Source: an uncultured archaeon
GTDB taxonomy: Archaea > Hadarchaeota > Hadarchaeia > Hadarchaeales > WYZ-LMO6
Assembly (NCBI GenBank): GCA_938074535.1
Contig: CALJER010000007.1
Location: forward strand, 1-37,726
Direction of reading: 5' to 3'
DNA: 37,726 nt
Shown here: positions 2 through 35,587 of the stretch, one piece after another
Layout: each line of letters begins with the position of its first letter
Position numbering within the stretch: position 1 is the stretch's first letter
Position numbers and translations under genes: made by a program
The notes under the pieces: model-generated
Told to the model about the DNA's origin: nothing
Databases searched by the model: none
The model's input: the letters and a program-made list of their open reading frames with translations, nothing else

Positions 2-448
2 ATCCTCAGGGGGGCAGGGGTGAGGGCGGGGCTGGTGAACGTGGGGGGAGAGGCAAGGGGCTTCGGCAAAAGCTGGACGGTAGGGGTGCAGCACCCCAGG
101 AAGGAGGAGGTGATGCTGGTGCTGGAGCTGGAGAACTTCTCCATCGCCACCTCCGGGGACTACAGGAGGTTCTTCTTCCTGGGCTCCAGGAGGGTCCACC
201 ACATCCTCGATCCCAGGAAGGGAGAGCCGGCGGTGGAGTGCATGAGCGTCACGGTGATAGCGGAGAACTGCGTGGACGCCGATGCCCTGAGCACGACCCT
301 CTTCGTGCTTGGACCGGAAGGAGGGAAGGAGCTGGCCGACCTCCTCTCCCGCTCCGGCAAGACCGTGAAGGCCATGCTGGTGGGCTCGGACGGGAAGATC
401 CTGTACTCGGACTCCTGGGACCTCCCCAGGACGGAGGAGCTACCCTGA
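2..448 (+). CDS. apbE: ApbE-like FAD:protein FMN transferase, C-terminal part (5' end truncated by the window edge)
   Basis: Frame is open from the window edge (ILRGAGVRAGLVNVGGE...); ApbE C-terminal motifs 'SGDYRRFFFLGSRRVHHILDPRKGEP' and 'DADALSTTLFVLGPEGG'. Sits next to rnf genes, whose products are ApbE substrates. Confidence 0.88.
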   Translation: MLRGAGVRAGLVNVGGEARGFGKSWTVGVQHPRKEEVMLVLELENFSIATSGDYRRFFFLGSRRVHHILDPRKGEPAVECMSVTVIAENCVDADALSTTLFVLGPEGGKELADLLSRSGKTVKAMLVGSDGKILYSDSWDLPRTEELP

Positions 449-1261
449 GGCGGGTGCGGGCGGGGAAGGAATCGGGGAGGGGGGGACCACGCCAAGCTTA
501 AGCACCTTGCGTGGGCACTTCTCCACGCAGGTCCCGCAGGCGTTGCAAAGGATGGGGTCGATGACGGGGAGGGGTTCGAGCTTTATGGCCTGAACGGGGC
601 AGGACTTTTCGCAGATCCTGCACTTGATGCACCCGCTGGCGCAGGAGGCGTTCACCTCCTTTCCGGAAGAGGGGGAGTTGCAGAGGAGGAGGACCTTGGT
701 GTCCTCCGGGAGGAGCTTGATCACACCCCTGGGACAGGCCTGCTCGCACAGCCCGCAGCCCGTGCACCTCCGCTCGTCCACCGCAGGCAGCCTTCCCTCC
801 ATCCTCAGGGCCCCGAAGGGGCAGGCCCTCACGCAGTCCCCCACCCCCAGGCACCCGTAGGGGCAGGCAAGGGGTCCTCCGGCCAGGTCGGAGAGGGCGG
901 AGCAGGTTCTCTCCCCGGAGGCGTCGAAGAGGATCTTGGACTCACCCGTGCACCTCACGCGGGGCAGCCTTCTTTTCTCCTCTTCCTTCACCTCTATCCC
1001 CAGGATCTTCCCTATCTCCCTCTTCTCCTCCGGACCAGCCAGCCTGCACTTGCTCAGGAGGGAGGGATCCTTCACCAGCTCCTCCGCCAGCGCATCGCAC
1101 CCGCCCTTGAGCCCGCAGGCCCCGCAGGAGGCCCCTGGAAGCTTCTCCCTGATCTTCTCAATCCTTTCGTCCACCTGAACGGCCATCTTCCTGGCCGCCA
1201 CCACCAGCATGACGGCAAAGGCGACCCCCATTATCCCCAGGACCCCCATCTCCTCTATCAT
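440..1261 (-). CDS. rnfB: Rnf electron transport complex subunit B (polyferredoxin)
   Basis: N-terminal TM, then 'GASCGACGLKGGC' and several CxxCxxCxxxCP ferredoxin motifs; last gene of the rnf operon. Confidence 0.93.
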   Translation of the reverse strand: MIEEMGVLGIMGVAFAVMLVVAARKMAVQVDERIEKIREKLPGASCGACGLKGGCDALAEELVKDPSLLSKCRLAGPEEKREIGKILGIEVKEEEKRRLPRVRCTGESKILFDASGERTCSALSDLAGGPLACPYGCLGVGDCVRACPFGALRMEGRLPAVDERRCTGCGLCEQACPRGVIKLLPEDTKVLLLCNSPSSGKEVNASCASGCIKCRICEKSCPVQAIKLEPLPVIDPILCNACGTCVEKCPRKVLKLGVVPPSPIPSPPAPASG

Positions 1262-1843
1262 CTACTCCACCATCCCGCTGAAACCCTGGAAGGCCAGGGC
1301 CAGGAGGGCAGCGGTGAGGAAGGCCAGGGGAAGACCGCGGAAGGAGGAGGGAGCATCGGAGATCTCCAGTCTCTCCCTCATCCCCGACATCATCAGGATG
1401 GCCAGGCTGTAGCCCAGACCCGTGGCGAAGCCGTTTACCACGGCGGCCGGGAAGGAGTACCTCTCCACGTCCACGTTGATCAGGGTCACACCCAGGATGG
1501 CGCAGTTCACGGTGATGAGGGGGAGGTAGATTCCGAAGGCCCTGTAGAGGGGGGGAGAGAGCTTCCTGATGGTGATCTCGACCAGCTGGACGAAGGAGGC
1601 TATCACCAGGATGAAGGCCACGATCCTCATGTACTCTATGTGGAAGGGCACAAGGAAGTACCTGTGGACGAGCCAGGTGATGAGGGAGGAGCAGGTGGCC
1701 ACGAAGGTGACGGCCATCCCCATCATCACCGCAGTCTTCACCCTGGTGGAGATGCCGAAGAAGGAACAGAGGCCCAGGAACTTCGTCAGAACGATGTTGT
1801 TGATGAAGATGGCCGCTATCACTATCCCGAGGAGGTTCTCCAT
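1262..1843 (-). CDS. rnfA: Rnf complex subunit A (membrane protein)
   Basis: 'NIVLTKFLGLCSFFGISTRVKTAVMMGMAVTFV' and 'LITVNCAILGV' are typical of RnfA/NqrE. Confidence 0.94.
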   Translation of the reverse strand: MENLLGIVIAAIFINNIVLTKFLGLCSFFGISTRVKTAVMMGMAVTFVATCSSLITWLVHRYFLVPFHIEYMRIVAFILVIASFVQLVEITIRKLSPPLYRAFGIYLPLITVNCAILGVTLINVDVERYSFPAAVVNGFATGLGYSLAILMMSGMRERLEISDAPSSFRGLPLAFLTAALLALAFQGFSGMVE

Positions 1844-1844
1844 C

Positions 1845-2438
1845 TCATATCACCCTCGCCTTCTTCAGCAAGGCGAGCAGGATGCCCATCACCAAGAAGG
1901 CTCCCGGGGGCAGGATCATGCCCGTGGCCGGGGAGGAAAGGAGGCCTGGGACCACCTGGTGCCCGAAGACCAAGACCTTGCCCGTCCCGAAGAACTCCCT
2001 CAGGAAGGAAATGACGAGGATGGAGAGGGAGAAGCCCACGCTCATCCCCAGGGTGTCCAGCAGGGTCTCGGGAACAGGGCGCTTGGAGGCGAAAGCCTCC
2101 GCCCTTCCCAGCACGATGCAGTTCACGGTGATGAGGGGAAGGAAGATCCCCAGCTGCTCGTAGAGGGAGGGCGAGTAGCCATGGATCAGCATCTCCACGA
2201 TGGTCACGAAGCTGGCTATGATCACGATGAAGGTGGGGATCCTCACGTCCCTGGGGATGAACCTCTTGAGGAGGGAAATGAGGAGATTGGAGAGAACGAT
2301 TACGAAGGTGAAGGCGACGGACATGCCCAGTGCGTTCTCCACCCTCGTGGTGATGGCGAGGACGGGACACAGACCCAGGACGAGCCCCAGCACCGGATTC
2401 CGCTTCAGGATACCCTTCGTGAACTCCTGGACCTTCAT
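1845..2438 (-). CDS. rnfE: Rnf complex subunit E (membrane protein)
   Basis: 'FTKGILKRNPVLGLVLGLCPVLAITTRVENALGM' and 'LPLITVNCIVLGRAEAFASK' are typical of RnfE/NqrD. Confidence 0.95.
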   Translation of the reverse strand: MKVQEFTKGILKRNPVLGLVLGLCPVLAITTRVENALGMSVAFTFVIVLSNLLISLLKRFIPRDVRIPTFIVIIASFVTIVEMLIHGYSPSLYEQLGIFLPLITVNCIVLGRAEAFASKRPVPETLLDTLGMSVGFSLSILVISFLREFFGTGKVLVFGHQVVPGLLSSPATGMILPPGAFLVMGILLALLKKARVI

Positions 2439-2442
2439 CCCC

Positions 2443-2952
2443 TCACCCCCTCAGGTTCTCCAGACCCTTCCTCACGGCCCTCACCGCCGCCCTGGAGCTT
2501 ATGGTGGCTCCCGTCACCGCCTCTATTTCCCCCCCGTCCTTCTTAAGGGCTATCTCCTCCAGCCTCTTCCCCCCGAACTGGGCCAGAAAGCCCTCCTCCG
2601 TTATCTTGGATCCCAGACCTGGGGTCTCGCCGTGGGAAACCACCCTGACCCCTACCACGGTTCCCTCCGGAGAGACCCCCACCACCACCTCCATCCTCCC
2701 CCCGAAGCCCCTCTCCTCCACCACCACGGCATACCCCACCACCTCCCCGTTCTCCATGCAGACGTAGCGACCGTTCTCCTCGCTGAACTGGGCACCGGGG
2801 AAGATCTCTGAGAGGGTGCGGTAGAGCTCCGCCCTCTCCGCCTCCTCTATTCTCTCCTTCGTGGCACCGTGGATGAGGCCCAGGAGGGCTCCCCAGACCA
2901 CGCAGGTGATCACCAGCACCGCCACCGGCTTCACTTCTTTCTTACCCACCAT
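2443..2952 (-). CDS. rnfG: Rnf complex subunit G (FMN-binding domain)
   Basis: N-terminal TM; 'VVSHGETPGLGSKITEEGFLAQF'; flavinylation motif 'VTGATISS'. Confidence 0.93.
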   Translation of the reverse strand: MVGKKEVKPVAVLVITCVVWGALLGLIHGATKERIEEAERAELYRTLSEIFPGAQFSEENGRYVCMENGEVVGYAVVVEERGFGGRMEVVVGVSPEGTVVGVRVVSHGETPGLGSKITEEGFLAQFGGKRLEEIALKKDGGEIEAVTGATISSRAAVRAVRKGLENLRG

Positions 2953-3872
2953 TTCTTTCCCACCGTCCCGTACACCCTGGGCCTGGTGTACCTGTCTATG
3001 AGGGGAGTGAAGGCGTTCATGATCAGGATGGAGTAGGTGACTCCCTCGGGCATCCCCCCGTACATCCTTATCACCACCACCAGGAGCCCCGCCCCTAGAC
3101 CGAAGATCACCCTTCCCTTGCCCGTGAGGGGAGTGGTGACGTAGTCGGTGGCCATGAAGAAGGCACCCAAGAAAAGGCCTCCGGCCAGCATGTGGAAGAG
3201 GGGATCCTCACCCAGCAGGAACATGAGCAGGCCCACCGTGCCTATGTAGGAGAGGGGGGTCTTCCAGTCGATGTACCTGAAGGCTATCAGCAGGATCCCA
3301 CCCAGCAGAATGGCCAGGGCGGAGGTCTCCCCTATGCACCCAGCCACGTTTCCCAGGAAGAGAGCGGAAAGGGAGGTATCCCCCCCTCCGGCCTTCCAGG
3401 TGCCCAGAGGGGTGGCCGTGCTCACCCCCTCGAAGGGGGAGACCCAGGTGGTCATGAGGGCGGGCCAGCTCAGGGAGAGGAAGGCCCTTCCCACCAGGGC
3501 AGGGTTGAAGAGGTTCTGGCCCAGACCACCGAAGGCGCACTTGCCCACGAGAATGGCGAAGGAAGAACCCACCACAGGCATCCACAGGGGAACGGTGGGG
3601 GGGAGACAGAGGGCCAGGAGCAGGCCCGTGATCACCGCACTGCCGTCCATGGTGAACTTCTTGCCCATGGCCCTGTACCCCAGGAACTCCGAAATCAGGG
3701 CGGAGGCCACGGAGACCAGGATCACCCAGAGGGCATGGAGACCGAAGAGGTAGACGCCGCAGGCTGAGGCCGGCAGGAGGGCCACCACCACCGTGAACAT
3801 GATCAGCCTCACCGAAACCCTGTCCTTGAGATGGGGGCTTGGCGAAACCCTCAGCCTGGTGCCCGGTATCAT
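2931..3872 (-). CDS. rnfD: Rnf complex subunit D (membrane flavoprotein)
   Basis: 'GYRAMGKKFTMDGSAVITGLLLALCLPPTVPLW', 'GGLGQNLFNPALVGRAFL', flavinylation-like 'STATPLG'. Start set at ATG 3872 (MIPGTRLRV), overlapping the rnfC stop as ATGA; the ORF-track extension to 3962 lies within rnfC. Confidence 0.92.
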   Translation of the reverse strand: MIPGTRLRVSPSPHLKDRVSVRLIMFTVVVALLPASACGVYLFGLHALWVILVSVASALISEFLGYRAMGKKFTMDGSAVITGLLLALCLPPTVPLWMPVVGSSFAILVGKCAFGGLGQNLFNPALVGRAFLSLSWPALMTTWVSPFEGVSTATPLGTWKAGGGDTSLSALFLGNVAGCIGETSALAILLGGILLIAFRYIDWKTPLSYIGTVGLLMFLLGEDPLFHMLAGGLFLGAFFMATDYVTTPLTGKGRVIFGLGAGLLVVVIRMYGGMPEGVTYSILIMNAFTPLIDRYTRPRVYGTVGKKWWVRKK

Positions 3873-5152
3873 TTCTTCAGCCTCCTGATCCCCTTCTTCC
3901 CCTCCCTTATCACATGCACGATGGGAATCTTGGAGGGGCAGACATAGGCGCAGCACCCGCACTCGTCGCAGCTGGTGAGGTTGTACTGCAGGCAGGCCTC
4001 GAAGTCCTTCTTCCTCACCAGCCTCACGAGATGAGTGGGCATCAGGCCCATGGGACAGGCGTCAACGCACCTCCCGCACCTGATGCAGGGGCCCTCCTCC
4101 TCTTCCCCGACCTCCCTTTCCTCCATCAAAAGCACGCAGCCCGTGGTCTTCACCACGGGCACCTCCTCGTGGACGGCGAACCCCATCATGGGTCCTCCCG
4201 CCACCACCTTCCCCACTTTCCCCGCCGCCCCCCCGCACTGCTGCAGGAGATAGGTGAAGGGGGTCCCCACCCTCACCCTCAGGTTCTTGGGCTCCGCCAC
4301 TGCCCCCGTCACGGTGACTACCCTTTCCACCAGCGGAATACCCAGCTTCACGGCGTCGTGGACGGCCTTCGAGGTGGCCACGTTCTGGACCACCGCTCCC
4401 ACGTCCAGAGGCAGGCCTCCCGCGGGCACCTCCCTCCCCAAAACGGCCTTCAGGAGGTGTCTCTCGTCCCCCTGGGGGTACTTGGTACGCAGCTTCACCA
4501 CCTCCCCCCAGCCCTCGCTCAGCTTTTGCATGTGCTCTATGGCGTCTGGTTTGTTGTCCTCGATGGCTATGAGGACCCTCGTCACCCCCAGGATCCTCGC
4601 CATGATCTTGGCCCCTTCTACCACCTTCTCCCCCTCCTCCAGCATCAGGCGGTGGTCGGCGGTGATGTAGGGCTCGCACTCCACCCCGTTGATCAGCAGA
4701 GTGTCCACCTTCTTGGGGGGATTGAGCTTGACGTGGGTGGGGAAGCCAGCTCCTCCCATCCCCACTATCCCGGCCTCCCTCACCCTCTGCAACAGCTCCT
4801 CCTTAGACGCCTTCTCCGGATCGAGGGGAGGCATCCTCACCCACTCGTCCCTCCCGTCGGACTCTATCACCACCGAAAGGACCCTGTCGCCTGTGGGCAG
4901 CCTGCGGGGGGAGAGCTCTGCCACCGTGCCTGAAACCGAGGCGTGAACGGGGGCGGAAACGGGGGCGTTCGAGTCCCCTATCTTCTGCCCCGTCTTCACC
5001 TGGGCCCCCTTCTCCACCAGGGGATCGCACGGGGCTCCCAGGTGCTGTCTGAGGGGAATCACCACACGAGGTGGAAGGGGTGGGACCTCTATCCTCTTGA
5101 AACCCGTGAGCTTCAGGCCGCTCGGATGAACTCCTCCCCTGAACCCTGACAT
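3869..5152 (-). CDS. rnfC: Rnf complex subunit C (NADH/ferredoxin-interacting Fe-S subunit)
   Basis: 'FRGGVHPSGLKLTG', 'GVECEPYITADHRLM', two C-terminal 4Fe-4S motifs (CIRCGRCVDACP, CDECGCCAYVCP). Start chosen at ATG 5152 (MSGFRGG), not the ORF-track extension to 5491. Confidence 0.93.
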   Translation of the reverse strand: MSGFRGGVHPSGLKLTGFKRIEVPPLPPRVVIPLRQHLGAPCDPLVEKGAQVKTGQKIGDSNAPVSAPVHASVSGTVAELSPRRLPTGDRVLSVVIESDGRDEWVRMPPLDPEKASKEELLQRVREAGIVGMGGAGFPTHVKLNPPKKVDTLLINGVECEPYITADHRLMLEEGEKVVEGAKIMARILGVTRVLIAIEDNKPDAIEHMQKLSEGWGEVVKLRTKYPQGDERHLLKAVLGREVPAGGLPLDVGAVVQNVATSKAVHDAVKLGIPLVERVVTVTGAVAEPKNLRVRVGTPFTYLLQQCGGAAGKVGKVVAGGPMMGFAVHEEVPVVKTTGCVLLMEEREVGEEEEGPCIRCGRCVDACPMGLMPTHLVRLVRKKDFEACLQYNLTSCDECGCCAYVCPSKIPIVHVIREGKKGIRRLKK

Positions 5153-31225: not shown

Positions 31226-31505
31226 AATTTTGTTCAATAAACTGATTCTACCTTGGGCGTTTACCTGAACGTGTGAGGGGTGGCTCCTCGCCGGCAGCCC
31301 TTTTGCTTCCTGTCCTTTCTCGCCACCATCTTTGAGGGGAAATGCGCCGTCCACTGCTGTCTCGGCAGGCGCGTGGACCTGGATAGCAGAAAGCACTGCA
31401 CCATGCCTGCTCTCCCCTCCCTTCTTTTGCCATGAACAGTCCCACGCCCCGCAGGGACGGGGATGTTTCCCTCCTTAAAAAGGGGCTGCCCACCAACCCC
31501 TCCCG

Positions 31506-31880
31506 ATGGACGAGAAAGGGGCGATGGACATACCCATCAAGCTGGTGATAGCCCTGGCGGTGGGGGCGATCTCCATGGGGGTCCTGACCCAGTTCGTAAA
31601 CATTTCCGAGAGGATGGTGTGGAGGGACATGAGGGTGCTCCTCTCCTACAAGGGAGGGGGATCCCTTCAGGTGAGCGTCTTCGACGCCGAGACGGGCCAG
31701 CCCCTCAACGGCGCCACGGTGGAGGTTAGGTACCCGAACGGCCTCAAGCTCCACACCCTCGGTCCCTCCTCCAGCAGCTACACCTTCCGCCTTCCCACCA
31801 GCGGAACCCCCTACCTCGCCAGGGTGAGGGTCACGCGCCCGGGCTACCTCCCCTGGGAGGGCCAGATAGCGGTGGAGTAG
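31506..31880 (+). CDS. Pilin-like protein: N-terminal TM preceded by EKGAMDIP, then an Ig-like/carboxypeptidase-regulatory-like domain
   Basis: 'MDEKGAMDIPIKLVIALAVGAISMGVLTQFV' then 'LQVSVFDAETGQPLNGATVEVRYPNG...YLARVRVTRPGYLPWEGQIAVE'; TATA-like CCTTAAAAAGG about 29 nt upstream. Confidence 0.72.
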   Translation: MDEKGAMDIPIKLVIALAVGAISMGVLTQFVNISERMVWRDMRVLLSYKGGGSLQVSVFDAETGQPLNGATVEVRYPNGLKLHTLGPSSSSYTFRLPTSGTPYLARVRVTRPGYLPWEGQIAVE

Positions 31881-31884
31881 GGAG

Positions 31885-32268
31885 ATGGAGTCCTTTCCCC
31901 TCGTAATCCTCCTCAGCGTCTTCCTCGCCCTCTCCACCCTCTCCCTGGGACTCAGGGGGATGGAAAGGCTGAGGGAGAGGGAGGGGAGGGAGAGAGCCGT
32001 GATGGGGTTGCAGCTCTTCCTGCAGGAGGTGAAGGCCCTGGCCCTCTCCTCCCCTGGCAGCGAGAGGGAGGTGGAGCTGGAGCTGAGAGGGGGCGAACTC
32101 CTGATCCTGGGGGAGAAGGTGGAGCTTTGGATGGGAGAGGAGAAAATCGGGGAGGGGATCCCCTCGCTACCCCTCCGCCCCTCCCCCCTCTCCCTCAGGG
32201 GAGGCAGCTACCTCCTCAGACTGGAGAAAGGGGGAAAGGTCCTCATCCTGCCCGTTTCCCCCTCTTAA
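31885..32268 (+). CDS. Pseudopilin-like single-TM protein, unknown function
   Basis: N-terminal TM 'FPLVILLSVFLALSTLSLGLRGME' followed by a small, probably beta-rich domain; 4 nt after the previous gene. Confidence 0.68.
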   Translation: MESFPLVILLSVFLALSTLSLGLRGMERLREREGRERAVMGLQLFLQEVKALALSSPGSEREVELELRGGELLILGEKVELWMGEEKIGEGIPSLPLRPSPLSLRGGSYLLRLEKGGKVLILPVSPS

Positions 32269-32292
32269 GGGGGAGGGAGCCAAGCCCCACGG

Positions 32293-32700
32293 ATGGGGAG
32301 CCTTCACCTCTTCCTCTCCTGCAAGACGGCGGCGGCCCTAGCCTCCATGCTCCTGCTCGTCTGCTGCCTCCACCTCCACTCCACCCTCCGCAGGGAAGGG
32401 GAGAGGGAGGAAGAAAGGGAAGCGGCGCGGGGGGTGCTGTCGACGCTGGAGCTGGCGGCCCTCCTCCCCTGCGAGGGAAGGATGGAGATCCGGCTTCCTC
32501 CCACCCGGGGAGACTTCCTCCTGAAAGGCAGGATGGAGGGAGGCAGCCAGGTGGTGGAGGCCTGGGCGCGTGGGGAGCTCCTCCTCTCCTCCATCCTCCC
32601 CCTGCCCGTCGGGAGCGGCTTCTTCCAGGAGCTCCTGAGCACGCCCTCCCGCCTTCTCGTGATCAGGCTGGAGAACCTCCTGCTGCTGGAGAGGGGGTGA
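32293..32700 (+). CDS. Single-TM protein of unknown function in a pilin-like operon
   Basis: N-terminal TM 'TAAALASMLLLVCCLHLHSTL'; codon bias like neighbours (AGG/GAG/CTC). Confidence 0.65.
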   Translation: MGSLHLFLSCKTAAALASMLLLVCCLHLHSTLRREGEREEEREAARGVLSTLELAALLPCEGRMEIRLPPTRGDFLLKGRMEGGSQVVEAWARGELLLSSILPLPVGSGFFQELLSTPSRLLVIRLENLLLLERG

Positions 32701-32704
32701 GGGG

Positions 32705-33025
32705 GTGGAGGATCTCTGCGCCTGGGTGGTGGTGCTCCTCCTCCTCTCTTCCTTCCTTCACTCCCTCTTCGCCTTCAGGGAGAACCTGGTGGGAGGGAAG
32801 CTGGAGGAAGCGGTGGCGGTAACGGAAAGAACCCTCCGCAGGCTCTGCAGGGAGCCGGGCCTCCTCGAGAACCTGAAAGGGACGGAGGAAAGGGTGGGCG
32901 TCTGGAGGGGGGAAAACCTGCTGGAGGGGAGGGAGAAACCCGGGGGAAAGGGCTCCGTGGTGCTGCCCGCGGCCCTCAAGAAAGGCTTCTCCGCCCTGCT
33001 GGTGGGGGTGGAGGCCTGGGAGTGA
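32705..33025 (+). CDS. Single-TM protein of unknown function in a pilin-like operon
   Basis: N-terminal TM 'CAWVVVLLLLSSFLHSLFAF'; GTG start 4 nt after the previous stop. Confidence 0.65.
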   Translation: MEDLCAWVVVLLLLSSFLHSLFAFRENLVGGKLEEAVAVTERTLRRLCREPGLLENLKGTEERVGVWRGENLLEGREKPGGKGSVVLPAALKKGFSALLVGVEAWE

Positions 33026-33486
33026 AAGGGGCGGCTGCCCTGCTGGACTTGATCCTCTTCTCGCTTGCGGTCTCAGCCGCCTGCCTCTCCCTGCACCTCC
33101 TCCCTCCCCCCGCGGAGGAGAGGGCCGCCTCCTCCTTCGGCAACCACCTGGCGCTGGCCCTCCAATCCGTCACCCTCGACTCCCTGGGCCTCGAGGAAGG
33201 CGGGATGAAATACAAAACGGTGCTGGGCGTGCTGGCCGAAGAAGGGGTGCTGGGGAAGGAGGAGGTGGGGGAGAAGCTGAAGGAGGCCCTTCGCGACCTC
33301 TGCGGGGGGAGGTGGTGCTGCGGGCTCAGGGTGGAAGTCCTCCGCCCTTCCGGCAAAACCGTCCTGCTGGAGCTCTCCACGGGGGAGAAAAAGGGGAGGA
33401 GGATGTACTCCGCCTCCCTCCACCGCACCCTTCCCCCTCCGGAGGTGGGGAGGGTGGAGATAAGGCTGGAGCTGTGGTCACGTTGA
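33022..33486 (+). CDS. Single-TM protein of unknown function in a pilin-like operon
   Basis: N-terminal TM 'AALLDLILFSLAVSAACLSLHLL'; 4-nt overlap with the upstream gene. Confidence 0.66.
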   Translation: MKGAAALLDLILFSLAVSAACLSLHLLPPPAEERAASSFGNHLALALQSVTLDSLGLEEGGMKYKTVLGVLAEEGVLGKEEVGEKLKEALRDLCGGRWCCGLRVEVLRPSGKTVLLELSTGEKKGRRMYSASLHRTLPPPEVGRVEIRLELWSR

Positions 33487-35156
33487 GAGGCTTCTTCCCC
33501 CTCACCGCCTCCGGTCTCCTGCTCCTTCTCCTCTCCCTCACGCTCTCCCTCCAAGCGGCCAGGCTGAACCTGGTGCGCTCCTCCTTCTCCCTCCAGGAAG
33601 CCTCCCTGCAGGAGCTCCTGCTGGCGGGGGTGAGCACCAGGAACGACCTGAGGGACCTCTGCAGGCACTCCGCCTACCAGGCTCTTTGGGAGGTTGGAAG
33701 GCGGGCCTCCTCCTATCCCACGGACGAGCAGAGAAGAGAGGCCGTGGAGAACCTGGCCGGGAACCTCTTTTCCAGCCTCCTCCCTTTCCTCCCCTCCCTC
33801 TACTCAGCCGTCGACGAACGCCTCCTCCTCCTTCCTGGGGAGGGAGTCGAATTCCACCTCTCCGCGGTGGAGAACGGCTTCTGCCTCCTGAAGGTAAGGA
33901 TGCCCGGAAGCAAACTCTCGGTGACCTCCCTCGATCTCTCCTCCTCCCTCTCCCTTCCTCTGGAGGAGATGGAGGTCTTCGTGGACTCCAGGTTCTTCCT
34001 CCTGCAGGACAAGATGAACCTCTTCCTCGGGAGGCTGGGGGAGGTGGAAAGGGAGTGGAGGAACGTCCAGTATCTCTCCGCCTGGGCGCAGGCCCTCTCC
34101 CTGGGGAAGGTGGAGCTCTCCCCCTCCCTCGCCGAGAAAAGCCTCCTCGCAGCCTGGTCGGCGCAGGAGCTCAGGACCTTCGGCTCCTTCGACTACTGTT
34201 CCTTCCTCCCCGATCCCCTTCCCTCCCCTCCCCGCGACAGGAAAGGGGTCCTCGACCTCCTGGAGGACCTCAGGGGGGAGACGGAATCCCTGCACGCGGA
34301 GCTGGGGGAGGAAGCGCGAAGGTGGAGGGAGAACCTCCCGCAGGTGCGGGTGCTGGAGGCGCTGGAGAGGGCGAGAAGGAGGCTGGAGGAGGTGGAGGAG
34401 AAATACCGGAGGCTCCGGTCCGCGGTGGAGGGCTCGGGTGATCCTCTCGTGGGGATGCTCTCGCAGGGAAACCCCGAGGAGTCCTGTCCCCCCTTCCTGC
34501 TCAGGCTCCGCTGGAGCCTCTCCGGAGTCCGGCACCTCCTCCTCTCCCTGGAGGAAAGGACCAAGGAAGGGGAGAACTCCCCTTCGCTCGCCACCTCCCT
34601 CGAAGGACTCCTCTCCCTCCCGGAGCGGGAGGACGGGGCCACCATGTACATGGAAAACCAGGGGACCCTCGGCTCCCTCCGCCTTCTGCTGAACGAGGCC
34701 GTGAAGGAGTTCGGCAGGGTGGCTGGACCCTCAGACCTCGAGCTCCCGGATGAGCTCCTTCTCCCCTCCCTTCCTCCGGGAGACCTCTTCCCCCCTCCAC
34801 CGGTGAGGGAGAATCCCGGCCTCTCCGTCCTGAGGGAGCTGCAGGTGAGGGAAGTGAGGTTCCGCCGCGAGGATCCCTCGGGCCTCCTGGGCCTCCCCTC
34901 CGCCACCCCCCTCATCCTCCCCTTCCTGGGGGTGAGGGTATGGTGGGCCCAGTGGAAAACGGAGGTGACGCTCGAGAGGGAACCCGTGGAGGAAATCCTC
35001 GACTACCTTTACCCAACCCTCCTCCTCCCCGGTCTTCCCTCCCGCGTGCCCCTCGCCTACCGCTTCGAGATCCCCAGGAAGAAGTTCGAGACCAGGGTGG
35101 TGGTGTTCAGCCCTAGGCCCTTCTCCGTTTTCTCCCGAGCTCACCCACCTCCCTGA
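33474..35156 (+). CDS. Large (about 560 aa) N-terminally anchored extracellular protein with coiled coil, unknown function
   Basis: N-terminal TM 'LTASGLLLLLLSLTLSLQAARLNLV', coiled coil 'LEALERARRRLEEVEEKYRRLRSAVEG'. GTG 33474 or TTG 33483 start; the ORF-track start at 33312 overlaps the previous gene. Confidence 0.7.
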   Translation: MVTLRGFFPLTASGLLLLLLSLTLSLQAARLNLVRSSFSLQEASLQELLLAGVSTRNDLRDLCRHSAYQALWEVGRRASSYPTDEQRREAVENLAGNLFSSLLPFLPSLYSAVDERLLLLPGEGVEFHLSAVENGFCLLKVRMPGSKLSVTSLDLSSSLSLPLEEMEVFVDSRFFLLQDKMNLFLGRLGEVEREWRNVQYLSAWAQALSLGKVELSPSLAEKSLLAAWSAQELRTFGSFDYCSFLPDPLPSPPRDRKGVLDLLEDLRGETESLHAELGEEARRWRENLPQVRVLEALERARRRLEEVEEKYRRLRSAVEGSGDPLVGMLSQGNPEESCPPFLLRLRWSLSGVRHLLLSLEERTKEGENSPSLATSLEGLLSLPEREDGATMYMENQGTLGSLRLLLNEAVKEFGRVAGPSDLELPDELLLPSLPPGDLFPPPPVRENPGLSVLRELQVREVRFRREDPSGLLGLPSATPLILPFLGVRVWWAQWKTEVTLEREPVEEILDYLYPTLLLPGLPSRVPLAYRFEIPRKKFETRVVVFSPRPFSVFSRAHPPP

Positions 35157-35418
35157 GGAGGAGGTCGAAGCGGGAACGCATCTCCTCCCTCAGGGACTCA
35201 AATTCGGGCTTCAGCCTGAAGAGGAGCTCCCCCGCCAGATGGGAGGGCCTCGCCTCCAGCCCCGACTCCTCGAACTCGGCCCTCAGATGGTCCATGAGAA
35301 GATGGACCTCCTCCCCGAAGACCCCTGCCCCCGCCAGCACCTCGTAGATCTCCTCCCTCGAGAAACCCATCCTGAGCATGGACCTTATGAGGTCCGAGAC
35401 CGACACTCCCTTTCCCAT
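35113..35418 (-). CDS. Small hypothetical helical protein
   Basis: 'SVSDLIRSMLRMGFSREEIYEVLAGAGVFGEEVHLLMDHLRAEFEE' resembles a UBA-like helical repeat; charged C-terminal helix; 44-bp convergent overlap with the previous gene. Confidence 0.65.
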   Translation of the reverse strand: MGKGVSVSDLIRSMLRMGFSREEIYEVLAGAGVFGEEVHLLMDHLRAEFEESGLEARPSHLAGELLFRLKPEFESLREEMRSRFDLLLREVGELGRKRRRA

Positions 35419-35490: not shown

Positions 35491-35587
35491 AGCGGGGTAG
35501 GGCAGCGTGGAGTGCCCGCCGGGCTCATAGGAGTTTTCCCGCGGAGAAACCCGGAGGTCGGAGGTTCAAGTCCTCCCCCCGCTACCA
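35491..35587 (+). tRNA. Initiator tRNA-Met (CAT) with a 19-nt intron (35530-35548), CCA encoded
   Basis: Acceptor AGCGGGG/CCCCGCT (A1-U72), anticodon stem CCGGG/CCCGG with G29-G31:C39-C41, anticodon CAT 35526-35528, intron GGAGTTTTCCCGCGGAGAA at 37/38, T arm GGAGG-TTCAAGT-CCTCC; upstream TATA CCTTTATCC. Confidence 0.95.

Follow-up and report, generated by a model that had tools for sequence, protein, structure and literature searches.

A Hadarchaeota gene cassette that probably encodes the subunits of an archaeal type IV pilus-like system with separate motor and subunit loci

A published paper (PMC4858521) already describes archaeal type IV pili whose ATPase and TadC genes are at a different locus from the pilin genes, and reports archaeal motors that share pilin sets. 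Its subclade 4F is marked by an ATPase with a variable Cys-rich N-terminus, TadC, a coiled-coil protein and a hybrid pilin set; the text consulted does not name Hadarchaeota and does not describe the cassette g1-g6 reported here (PMC4858521). In haloarchaea, one operon encodes, in this order, a coiled-coil protein, a DUF7311 protein, a secretion ATPase, TadC, an unnamed protein, and DUF7285, DUF7284 and DUF7286 proteins. The ATPase and TadC genes are found between h2 and h3-h6, the haloarchaeal counterparts of g2 and g3-g6, in five of the haloarchaeal-type loci that were read through, and the rest are consistent with this where visible. Haloferax volcanii and Methanosarcina acetivorans, included as named controls, have DUF7284 and DUF7286 as well. 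A literature search for DUF7284-7286, 7310 or 7311 by name found no paper, and a tblastn search of plasmids with a haloarchaeal DUF7286 protein gave no match.

The window, which is the whole analysed stretch of 37,726 nucleotides, belongs to a Hadarchaeota (Hadesarchaea) assembly that is 93.6% complete and has 53 contigs. ORF calls place g1-g6 tightly packed on the + strand from 31506 to 35156, with spacings of 4, 24 and 4 nt and overlaps of 4 and 13 nt, in agreement with the original prediction of six co-oriented genes with 4-24 nt spacers and 4-13 nt overlaps. Each protein has a single predicted N-terminal hydrophobic helix and no second one, also as claimed. The six genes are not the whole unit, which extends to a seventh gene, g7, convergent with g6 and overlapping its 3' end by 44 bp. 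Comparison with the congeneric genome G001 gives dN/dS values of 0.09-0.32 for g1-g6, which indicate purifying selection, and because of these values and of the same order in other genera g1-g6 are taken as real genes. The features are as follows (a slash marks the putative cleavage point).

31440..31505, + strand: promoter region of the cassette, with TATA-like AT-rich CCTTAAAAAGG at about 31473-31483 (from the sequence).
31506..31880, + strand: g1, 124 aa, pilin-like, with class III-like signal MDEKG/AMDIPIKLVIALAVG (predicted fold, Foldseek).
31885..32268, + strand: g2, 127 aa, with a single helix, in the position that the DUF7311-type protein has in haloarchaea (profile-profile comparison).
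32293..32700, + strand: g3, 135 aa, with a single helix, corresponding to the protein encoded directly after TadC in haloarchaea (profile-profile comparison).
32705..33025, + strand: g4, 106 aa, DUF7285-like single-helix protein without a prepilin-peptidase-like site (profile-profile comparison).
33022..33486, + strand: g5, 154 aa, DUF7284-like, with signal MKG/AAALLDLILF (profile-profile comparison, Pfam on orthologues).
33474..35156, + strand: g6, 560 aa, DUF7286-like, with signal RG/FFPLT; its start is GTG, and an alternative TTG start at 33483 is possible (profile-profile comparison).
35113..35418, - strand: g7, 101 aa, small soluble helical protein (position beside g6).

The cassette is present in fixed order in 20 of the 27 genomes of the order, with variable flanks, as the synteny expected by the original prediction would have it, and g7 adjoins g6 convergently in every case where the contig extends that far. 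Pfam and NCBIfam give nothing usable for the window proteins directly, beyond a CarboxypepD_reg match of g1 (1.2e-5) that is under the curated cut-off, and the DUF links emerge only when the proteins of relatives are scanned; the proposed profile check thus identifies the families of g2 and g4-g6, and less well that of g3. In these comparisons g2, g4, g5 and g6 correspond one-to-one and in the same order to the DUF7311-, DUF7285-, DUF7284- and DUF7286-type proteins (88-97%), and every off-diagonal cell of the matrix of g2-g6 against h2-h6 is at most 5%. The match of g4 (96.6%) stays at 94% after removal of the first 45 residues and that of g6 (96.9%) at 93% when trimmed; DUF7285 is matched in relatives by a Pfam scan. 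For g5, the values are 95.7% with haloarchaea and 99% with the methanogen-like f30 cassette, and its orthologues in G011, G014 and G022 are above the Pfam cut-off for PF23955 (DUF7284). The match of g2 (88%, other cells in its row below 2%) is carried by the N-terminal segment and falls to 2.8% once 45 residues are trimmed. The weakest of the five counterparts is g3, which reaches 25% with haloarchaea and 64% with f30, the row maximum in both, in a match that vanishes on trimming; no Pfam family was found for its counterpart. Profile-profile comparison found no haloarchaeal counterpart of g7, and a correspondence of g7 to the haloarchaeal gene downstream of DUF7286 found no support (0.2%).

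The AlphaFold2 model of g1, which is found only in Hadarchaeota, has a mean pLDDT of 80, with a helix at residues 11-36 followed by seven strands at pLDDT about 90, and Foldseek matches it to FN3 domains and to the Pyrobaculum flagellar-like type IV pilus 8fk7. The protein is thus predicted to be a helix with an FN3/Ig-like beta sandwich, the architecture of archaeal pilins; the classical pilin Glu5 is not evident in it. The pilin fold is judged on g1, and of the fold check proposed for the cassette it is this helix with an Ig-like head that bears the expectation out, the other model, g6, having no significant Foldseek match. The g6 model (mean pLDDT 76) has a long N-terminal helix, a beta domain, a coiled-coil middle and a conserved C-terminal beta domain, and in relatives both ends of the protein are conserved and the middle is variable. 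Against the PDB, the g6 sequence had only nonspecific coiled-coil matches and the g5 sequence had none. The g7 protein has a UBA-like N-terminus and a coiled-coil tail. A minor pilin/pseudopilin or TadE/F/G-like cassette had been suggested, to which the predicted g1 fold and the conservation lend support for the pilin part; no TadE, TadF or TadG family matches were obtained with Pfam or NCBIfam.

A prepilin-peptidase-like site, scored across the order as a polar residue plus Gly ahead of the helix, is found in g1 (13/15), g2 (11/18), g3 (13/18), g5 (18/19) and g6 (18/19), and in none of 18 g4 proteins. The view that only g1 carries such a site is not upheld, because the window's g5 (MKG/AAALLD) and g6 (LRG/FFPLT) have one too, as do g1, g2, g3, g5 and g6 of relatives. 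By sequence, then, the cassette appears to encode pilins with a class III signal and an N-terminal helix, as an archaeal type IV pilus-like system has. A prepilin peptidase (A24) is above cut-off in 20 of 27 genomes, both congeners included; a search of the window's own assembly, at its completeness of 93.6% in 53 contigs, did not find one.

The window itself has no ATPase, platform protein or prepilin peptidase, as was correctly noted before; the first two are encoded elsewhere in the same genome and the peptidase in relatives. An ATPase/TadC operon at G000:C3:70.8-75.4 kb, unlinked to the cassette, encodes a small membrane protein, a helical protein, a coiled-coil protein, a Cys-rich secretion ATPase (T2SSE match 1e-23) and TadC. 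When this ATPase is queried in four haloarchaeal-type genomes, the top match is the cassette-linked ATPase in 4/4 (E 6e-58 to 2.5e-69), and the next paralogue is far behind (E about 1e-33 to 1e-36). In a tree, C3-type ATPases fall together with the cassette-linked ones and away from the C45 and C24 ATPases of the window's genome; the fork that joins C3-type and haloarchaeal ATPases has support of 86/70, and long branches meet there. The C3 ATPase is accordingly, as judged from its sequence, the orthologue of the cassette-linked haloarchaeal ATPase. The TadC gene overlaps the ATPase gene and encodes seven predicted helices; the protein itself is not matched by Pfam T2SSF, but it is the best BLAST match of haloarchaeal platform proteins (2e-7 to 4e-15). 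The motor operon is conserved, with four Cys in the first 80 residues of the ATPase and a coiled-coil-like gene directly upstream. In this genome, its neighbours include a gene for a transglutaminase-like surface protein. The cassette had been described as having no recognised machinery, which does not hold given this operon and the matches of g2 and g4-g6 to named Pfam families.

The CCTTAAAAAGG element is roughly 25-30 nt 5' of the g1 start, and most relatives have TTTATAAA and then a conserved CCACCCAAAGCCTCGGCGGG stretch at the corresponding position. In several f3-family relatives a rare 33-nt element stands upstream of g1, of g7 and of the motor operon alike, and a reversed-pattern control gave zero hits; the window's own family lacks this longer element. 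A first impression that it is specific to g1 and g7 was rejected on a whole-genome search, which finds up to 23 sites per genome ahead of varied, unrelated genes, so that the element is a promoter class and not a dedicated regulon. The co-occurrence of cassette and C3-type ATPase, which was proposed as a check on orphan motor genes, is seen by genome: 19 genomes have both and 4 have neither, while 2 have the cassette alone and 2 the ATPase alone (p = 0.011 by Fisher's test, with G002 counted as cassette-bearing). Incomplete genomes confound this co-occurrence (p = 0.15 among those at least 80% complete), which gives weak support.

These observations make it probable that g1-g6 are the subunit half of a split-locus, TadC-dependent archaeal type IV pilus-like system, which is supported directly by the homology and order of the subunits, the ATPase orthology, the promoter element common to the loci of relatives and the predicted fold of g1. 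From them we infer cleavage, assembly, individual subunit roles and biological purpose, which may be adhesion, secretion or DNA uptake. A single haloarchaeal operon type would have been divided in Hadarchaeota into a motor half at C3 and a subunit half in the window. The subunits would be inserted into the membrane via the N-terminal helix, prepilin peptidase would trim a short charged leader from g1, g2, g3, g5 and g6, and the ATPase, acting through TadC, would push them out as a filament or short pseudopilus. The Ig-like-headed g1 is most likely the main or shaft subunit, g2-g5 may be minor subunits, the large coiled-coil g6 may be a tip, adhesin or base organiser, and g7 may be a cytoplasmic accessory or regulator.

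It is somewhat unlikely that the ATPase/TadC engine instead powers a short piston or protein exporter, in a pseudopilin-type secretion or envelope-spanning device where g2-g6 would stay together as a fixed complex in the membrane and g1 alone, or nothing, would polymerise. The small or odd exodomains of five of the six proteins, the large helical/coiled-coil region of g6 that has no fold match, the missing cleavage site of g4 and the transglutaminase-like gene beside the motor operon would fit such a device, but the pilin-typical architecture predicted for g1 and the class III-like sites on most other subunits in relatives argue for a pilus. It is very improbable that the operon simply brings together small envelope proteins that have a membrane anchor but are otherwise unrelated: single N-terminal helices are common and g1-g6 have no evident mutual sequence similarity, but their order is kept across the Hadarchaeota order and that of g2-g6 also around the haloarchaeal ATPase and TadC.

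The genome has three ATPase/platform pairs, C3, C24 (G000:C24), which adjoins a gene for a 321-aa single-helix protein, and C45, which is PilB3-like, so the cassette could be driven by C24, by C45 or by several motors that share it. Co-occurrence with the cassette is nearly as good for the C24-type ATPase (16/4/3/4) as for the C3-type, G006 carries the cassette but no C3-type ATPase, and PMC4858521 reports archaeal motors with common pilin sets. This reading is nevertheless unlikely, since only the C3-type ATPase is orthologous to the motor that haloarchaea encode together with the homologous subunits, the promoter element of the C3 operon in several f3 genomes is also that of g1 and g7, and the PilB3-like C45 motor would serve the PilA pathway. 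It is likewise doubtful that Hadarchaeota have a distinct phylum-wide filament with g1 and g7 as new parts and both loci co-expressed via the common promoter element; in that reading the element would control further genes for surface proteins and nucleic-acid handling as well, and the system might serve DNA uptake or another function not of haloarchaeal type.

The split-locus pilus-like system is most likely not a new kind of machine, and ties together several families that lack an assigned role: DUF7284, DUF7285, DUF7286, DUF7311 and an unnamed family would become one archaeal pilus-like subunit set, common to Hadarchaeota, haloarchaea and methanogens. The genetically tractable Haloferax volcanii has DUF7284 and DUF7286 proteins, which makes the function of a module from an uncultured phylum directly testable. 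The case illustrates how machines escape notice when subunit and motor loci are apart.

The bacterial Tad/Flp pilus (TadA, TadB/C, TadE, TadF, TadG) also combines an ATPase and a TadC-type platform with a single large protein and small subunits of one helix each, a likeness of layout only. An undescribed appendage, as was suggested for the cassette, does not describe it well, since the same subunits are in the haloarchaeal ATPase-TadC operon and split-locus archaeal pili are described in PMC4858521. Subclade 4F (Makarova, Koonin and Albers 2016, PMC4858521) resembles Hadarchaeota in the Cys-rich ATPase N-terminus and the coiled-coil gene, a likeness that rests on the features given in the available text of that paper. 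The methanogen-like f30 cassette (m2-m3-m4-m5) has the same subunits and order, with a large DUF7286 protein of about 1330-1350 aa nearby or elsewhere, and its motor is at another locus, as is that of the f120 family; unlike Hadarchaeota, it has no g1 or g7. It is flanked by genes that we take, from reading them, to be hisS and a ribosomal protein-like gene. In the haloarchaeal DUF7285 (PF23956)/DUF7284 (PF23955)/DUF7286 (PF23957) operon the motor genes are inside the subunit operon, whereas Hadarchaeota have them at a separate locus, with g1 and g7 in addition, and a g6 of about 510-740 aa in place of a DUF7286-like protein of about 960-1050 aa; the haloarchaeal gene following DUF7286 has no Hadarchaeota counterpart. 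The two systems have in common g2-g6, one-to-one and in order with g3 weak, a linked haloarchaeal ATPase that is the orthologue of the C3 ATPase, its Cys-rich N-terminus and the coiled-coil gene upstream of it.

The cassette, originally proposed to be an archaeal surface appendage or secretion module, consists of six co-oriented genes, and the open reading frames of the window confirm the gene positions and spacings first described:

31506-31880, + strand, g1
31885-32268, + strand, g2 (putative DUF7311-type counterpart)
32293-32700, + strand, g3
32705-33025, + strand, g4 (DUF7285-type)
33022-33486, + strand, g5 (DUF7284-type)
33474-35156, + strand, g6 (DUF7286-type)

The genome, of which the window is contig 7, measures 1.2 Mb and is 93.6% complete. 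Each of the six proteins has a single predicted N-terminal hydrophobic helix, and dN/dS values of 0.09 to 0.32 against the congeneric genome G001 indicate purifying selection on g1-g6. Elsewhere in the window, the translations at 440-5065 (- strand) look like an Rnf electron-transport operon, and an intron-containing tRNA at 35491-35584 (+ strand; Rfam 51 bits), missed by ARAGORN, reads as tRNA-Met with anticodon CAT and an intron after position 37.

The cassette is kept in related archaea. Searches with g6 find it in 20 of the 27 genomes of the order, the same 20 being recovered by a profile search, and in 0 of 34 genomes outside the order; the g6 search does not find it in the congener G002. 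Scanning the database with an alignment of g1 gives 17 loci, all of Hadarchaeota (titled Hadesarchaea, Hadarchaeum or Hodarchaeaceae), and a WYZ-LMO6 contig in the database scan carries g1 and the beginning of g2 before it ends. The g1-g6 order is identical in all loci of sufficient length, and the convergent gene g7 (35113-35418, - strand in the window) follows g6 directly in the neighbourhoods read. The flanks vary: the window's genus has the trp operon there and other lineages have other genes, among them a highly divergent, A+T-rich member (L047). The fixed order, the convergent g7 and the changing flanks together show that the cassette is a seven-gene unit, g1-g7. In G009, g6 is split in two frames (L042:9948-11976), by a frameshift or an assembly error, and two matches to g6, on separate contigs, are present in G016 and likewise in G021.

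The window proteins alone give no useful family match, but 47 relatives scanned one by one match DUF7284 (best 1.6e-7), DUF7285 and, weakly, DUF7311. Searched for across whole genomes, DUF7284 turns up in g5 of several Hadarchaeota, with three of these passing the curated cut-off. It also matches family f30 (archaeal genomes of 2.1-3.1 Mb), in whose phylum DUF7286 is traced in 62 of 247 genomes, and, among named controls, Haloferax volcanii and Methanosarcina acetivorans. From the controls, genome size and protein make-up, we infer that f30 is Methanosarcina-like and that families f119, f124, f130 and f140 are haloarchaea.

The haloarchaeal-type operon has the order coiled-coil protein, h2, secretion ATPase, TadC, h3, h4 (DUF7285), h5 (DUF7284) and h6 (DUF7286); five loci cover h2 through h6, and the others are consistent over the part read. 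When profiles of Hadarchaeal g1-g7 are compared with those of haloarchaeal h2-h7, the matches fall cleanly on the diagonal, with g2-h2 at 88%, g3-h3 at 25%, g4-h4 at 96.6%, g5-h5 at 95.7%, g6-h6 at 96.9% and all off-diagonal cells at or below 5%, while g1 and g7 have no counterpart. The diagonal for g2-g6 against f30 is 50, 64, 96, 99 and 79%. Without the first 45 residues, g4 (94%), g5 (74%) and g6 (93%) still match their haloarchaeal counterparts and g2 and g3 do not, so the assignment of these two rests on the N-terminal region and on gene position.

The N-termini of relatives, which are more informative on signal sites than those of the window, have a polar residue and Gly, mostly Lys-Gly or Arg-Gly, just before the helix in g1 (13/15), g2 (11/18), g3 (13/18), g5 (18/19) and g6 (18/19), and in none of 18 for g4. 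By their pattern, these are putative class III (prepilin-type) sites, and the original restriction of such a site to g1 does not extend to the relatives. The predicted structure of g1 (mean pLDDT 80) consists of a helix (residues 11-36) and a sandwich of seven strands modelled at pLDDT about 90. The top Foldseek matches are FN3 domains, and a match spanning almost the whole protein is to 8fk7, the flagellar-like archaeal type IV pilus of Pyrobaculum (E 3e-3, TM 0.41), which suggests a pilin-like fold. The g6 model (mean pLDDT 76), with long N-terminal helices, a beta domain, a coiled coil and a C-terminal beta domain, has no significant fold match.

As first reported, the window has no ATPase or platform gene. 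Its genome carries three ATPase/platform pairs, on contigs C3, C24 and C45, and the unlinked pair on C3 is the candidate motor:

G000:C3:70805-75378, outside the window, motor operon

This operon is conserved across the order and runs from a small membrane protein through a helical and a coiled-coil protein to an ATPase, Cys-rich at its N-terminus, and TadC. The best match of its ATPase is the cassette-linked ATPase in 4/4 haloarchaeal-type genomes (E 6e-58 to 2.5e-69), the next paralogue there being at about 1e-33 to 1e-36. A maximum-likelihood tree joins Hadarchaeota C3-type ATPases to the cassette-linked ones and to the best-matching f30 and f120 ATPases; the C45 and C24 groups stand separately. 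The best-match pattern is the firmer argument, because the joining fork has support of 86/70 and the tree carries a long-branch warning. Prepilin peptidase is not found in the window's own assembly (93.6% complete); across the order, 20 of the 27 genomes have it, as do both congeners. Next to the motor operon (L055:7443-8765; G000:C3:69443-70765) lies the gene of a transglutaminase-like protein that is membrane-anchored and bears a CARDB-like domain. On C24 (L057:3169-8133), a second, divergent Cys-rich ATPase/platform pair, whose ATPase family is a separate deep clade, accompanies a divergently transcribed 321-aa single-helix protein.

A promoter weight matrix built solely from regions upstream of g1 in relatives, run over both strands of 718 kb, has 25 of its 27 matches above 16 bits at g1 or g7 promoters. 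A whole-genome search for the 33-nt pattern, with up to 3 mismatches, gives 0-23 sites per genome, and the reversed control pattern gives none. In G007, G011, G014, G017 and G021 a site stands 3-4 nt ahead of the first motor-operon gene; in G019, G020, G023 and G025, coordinates place one about 1.1 kb upstream of the C3-type ATPase. Because it also stands before unrelated genes and is missing from the family of the window itself, the element is independent support for coordinated subunit and motor expression in relatives, not proof for the window's species. The element (TTTATAAA..ACCTCCACCCAAAG.CTCGGCGGG), seen at L040:8335, L051:13408 and in whole genomes G006-G026, reaches 23 copies per genome in one Hadarchaeota family; the genes after it read as pilus, motor, nuclease-like, antitoxin-like, Cas2-like and surface-protein genes, and in two genomes about half of the copies lack an evident gene within 160 nt.

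These data support the cassette as the subunit half of an archaeal type IV pilus-like machine whose genes are split between two loci and which is homologous to the haloarchaeal operon. The published papers searched give no function for that operon, and no publication naming these DUF families was found. Adhesion is the default role for archaeal pili, with a pseudopilus for secretion and DNA uptake as possible alternatives.

The pilus-like machine is of a known kind. Archaeal pilins encoded apart from ATPase and TadC are already described (PMC4858521), and the same paper characterises subclade 4F by an ATPase that is Cys-rich at its N-terminus and by a coiled-coil protein, described features in which the C3 operon resembles it. 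Haloarchaeal-type loci hold ATPase and TadC inside the subunit operon, whereas the Hadarchaeota motor is at another locus, as in f30 and f120, where the subunit genes also lie apart from the motor; new here are the split locus, the added g1 and g7 and the new phylum.
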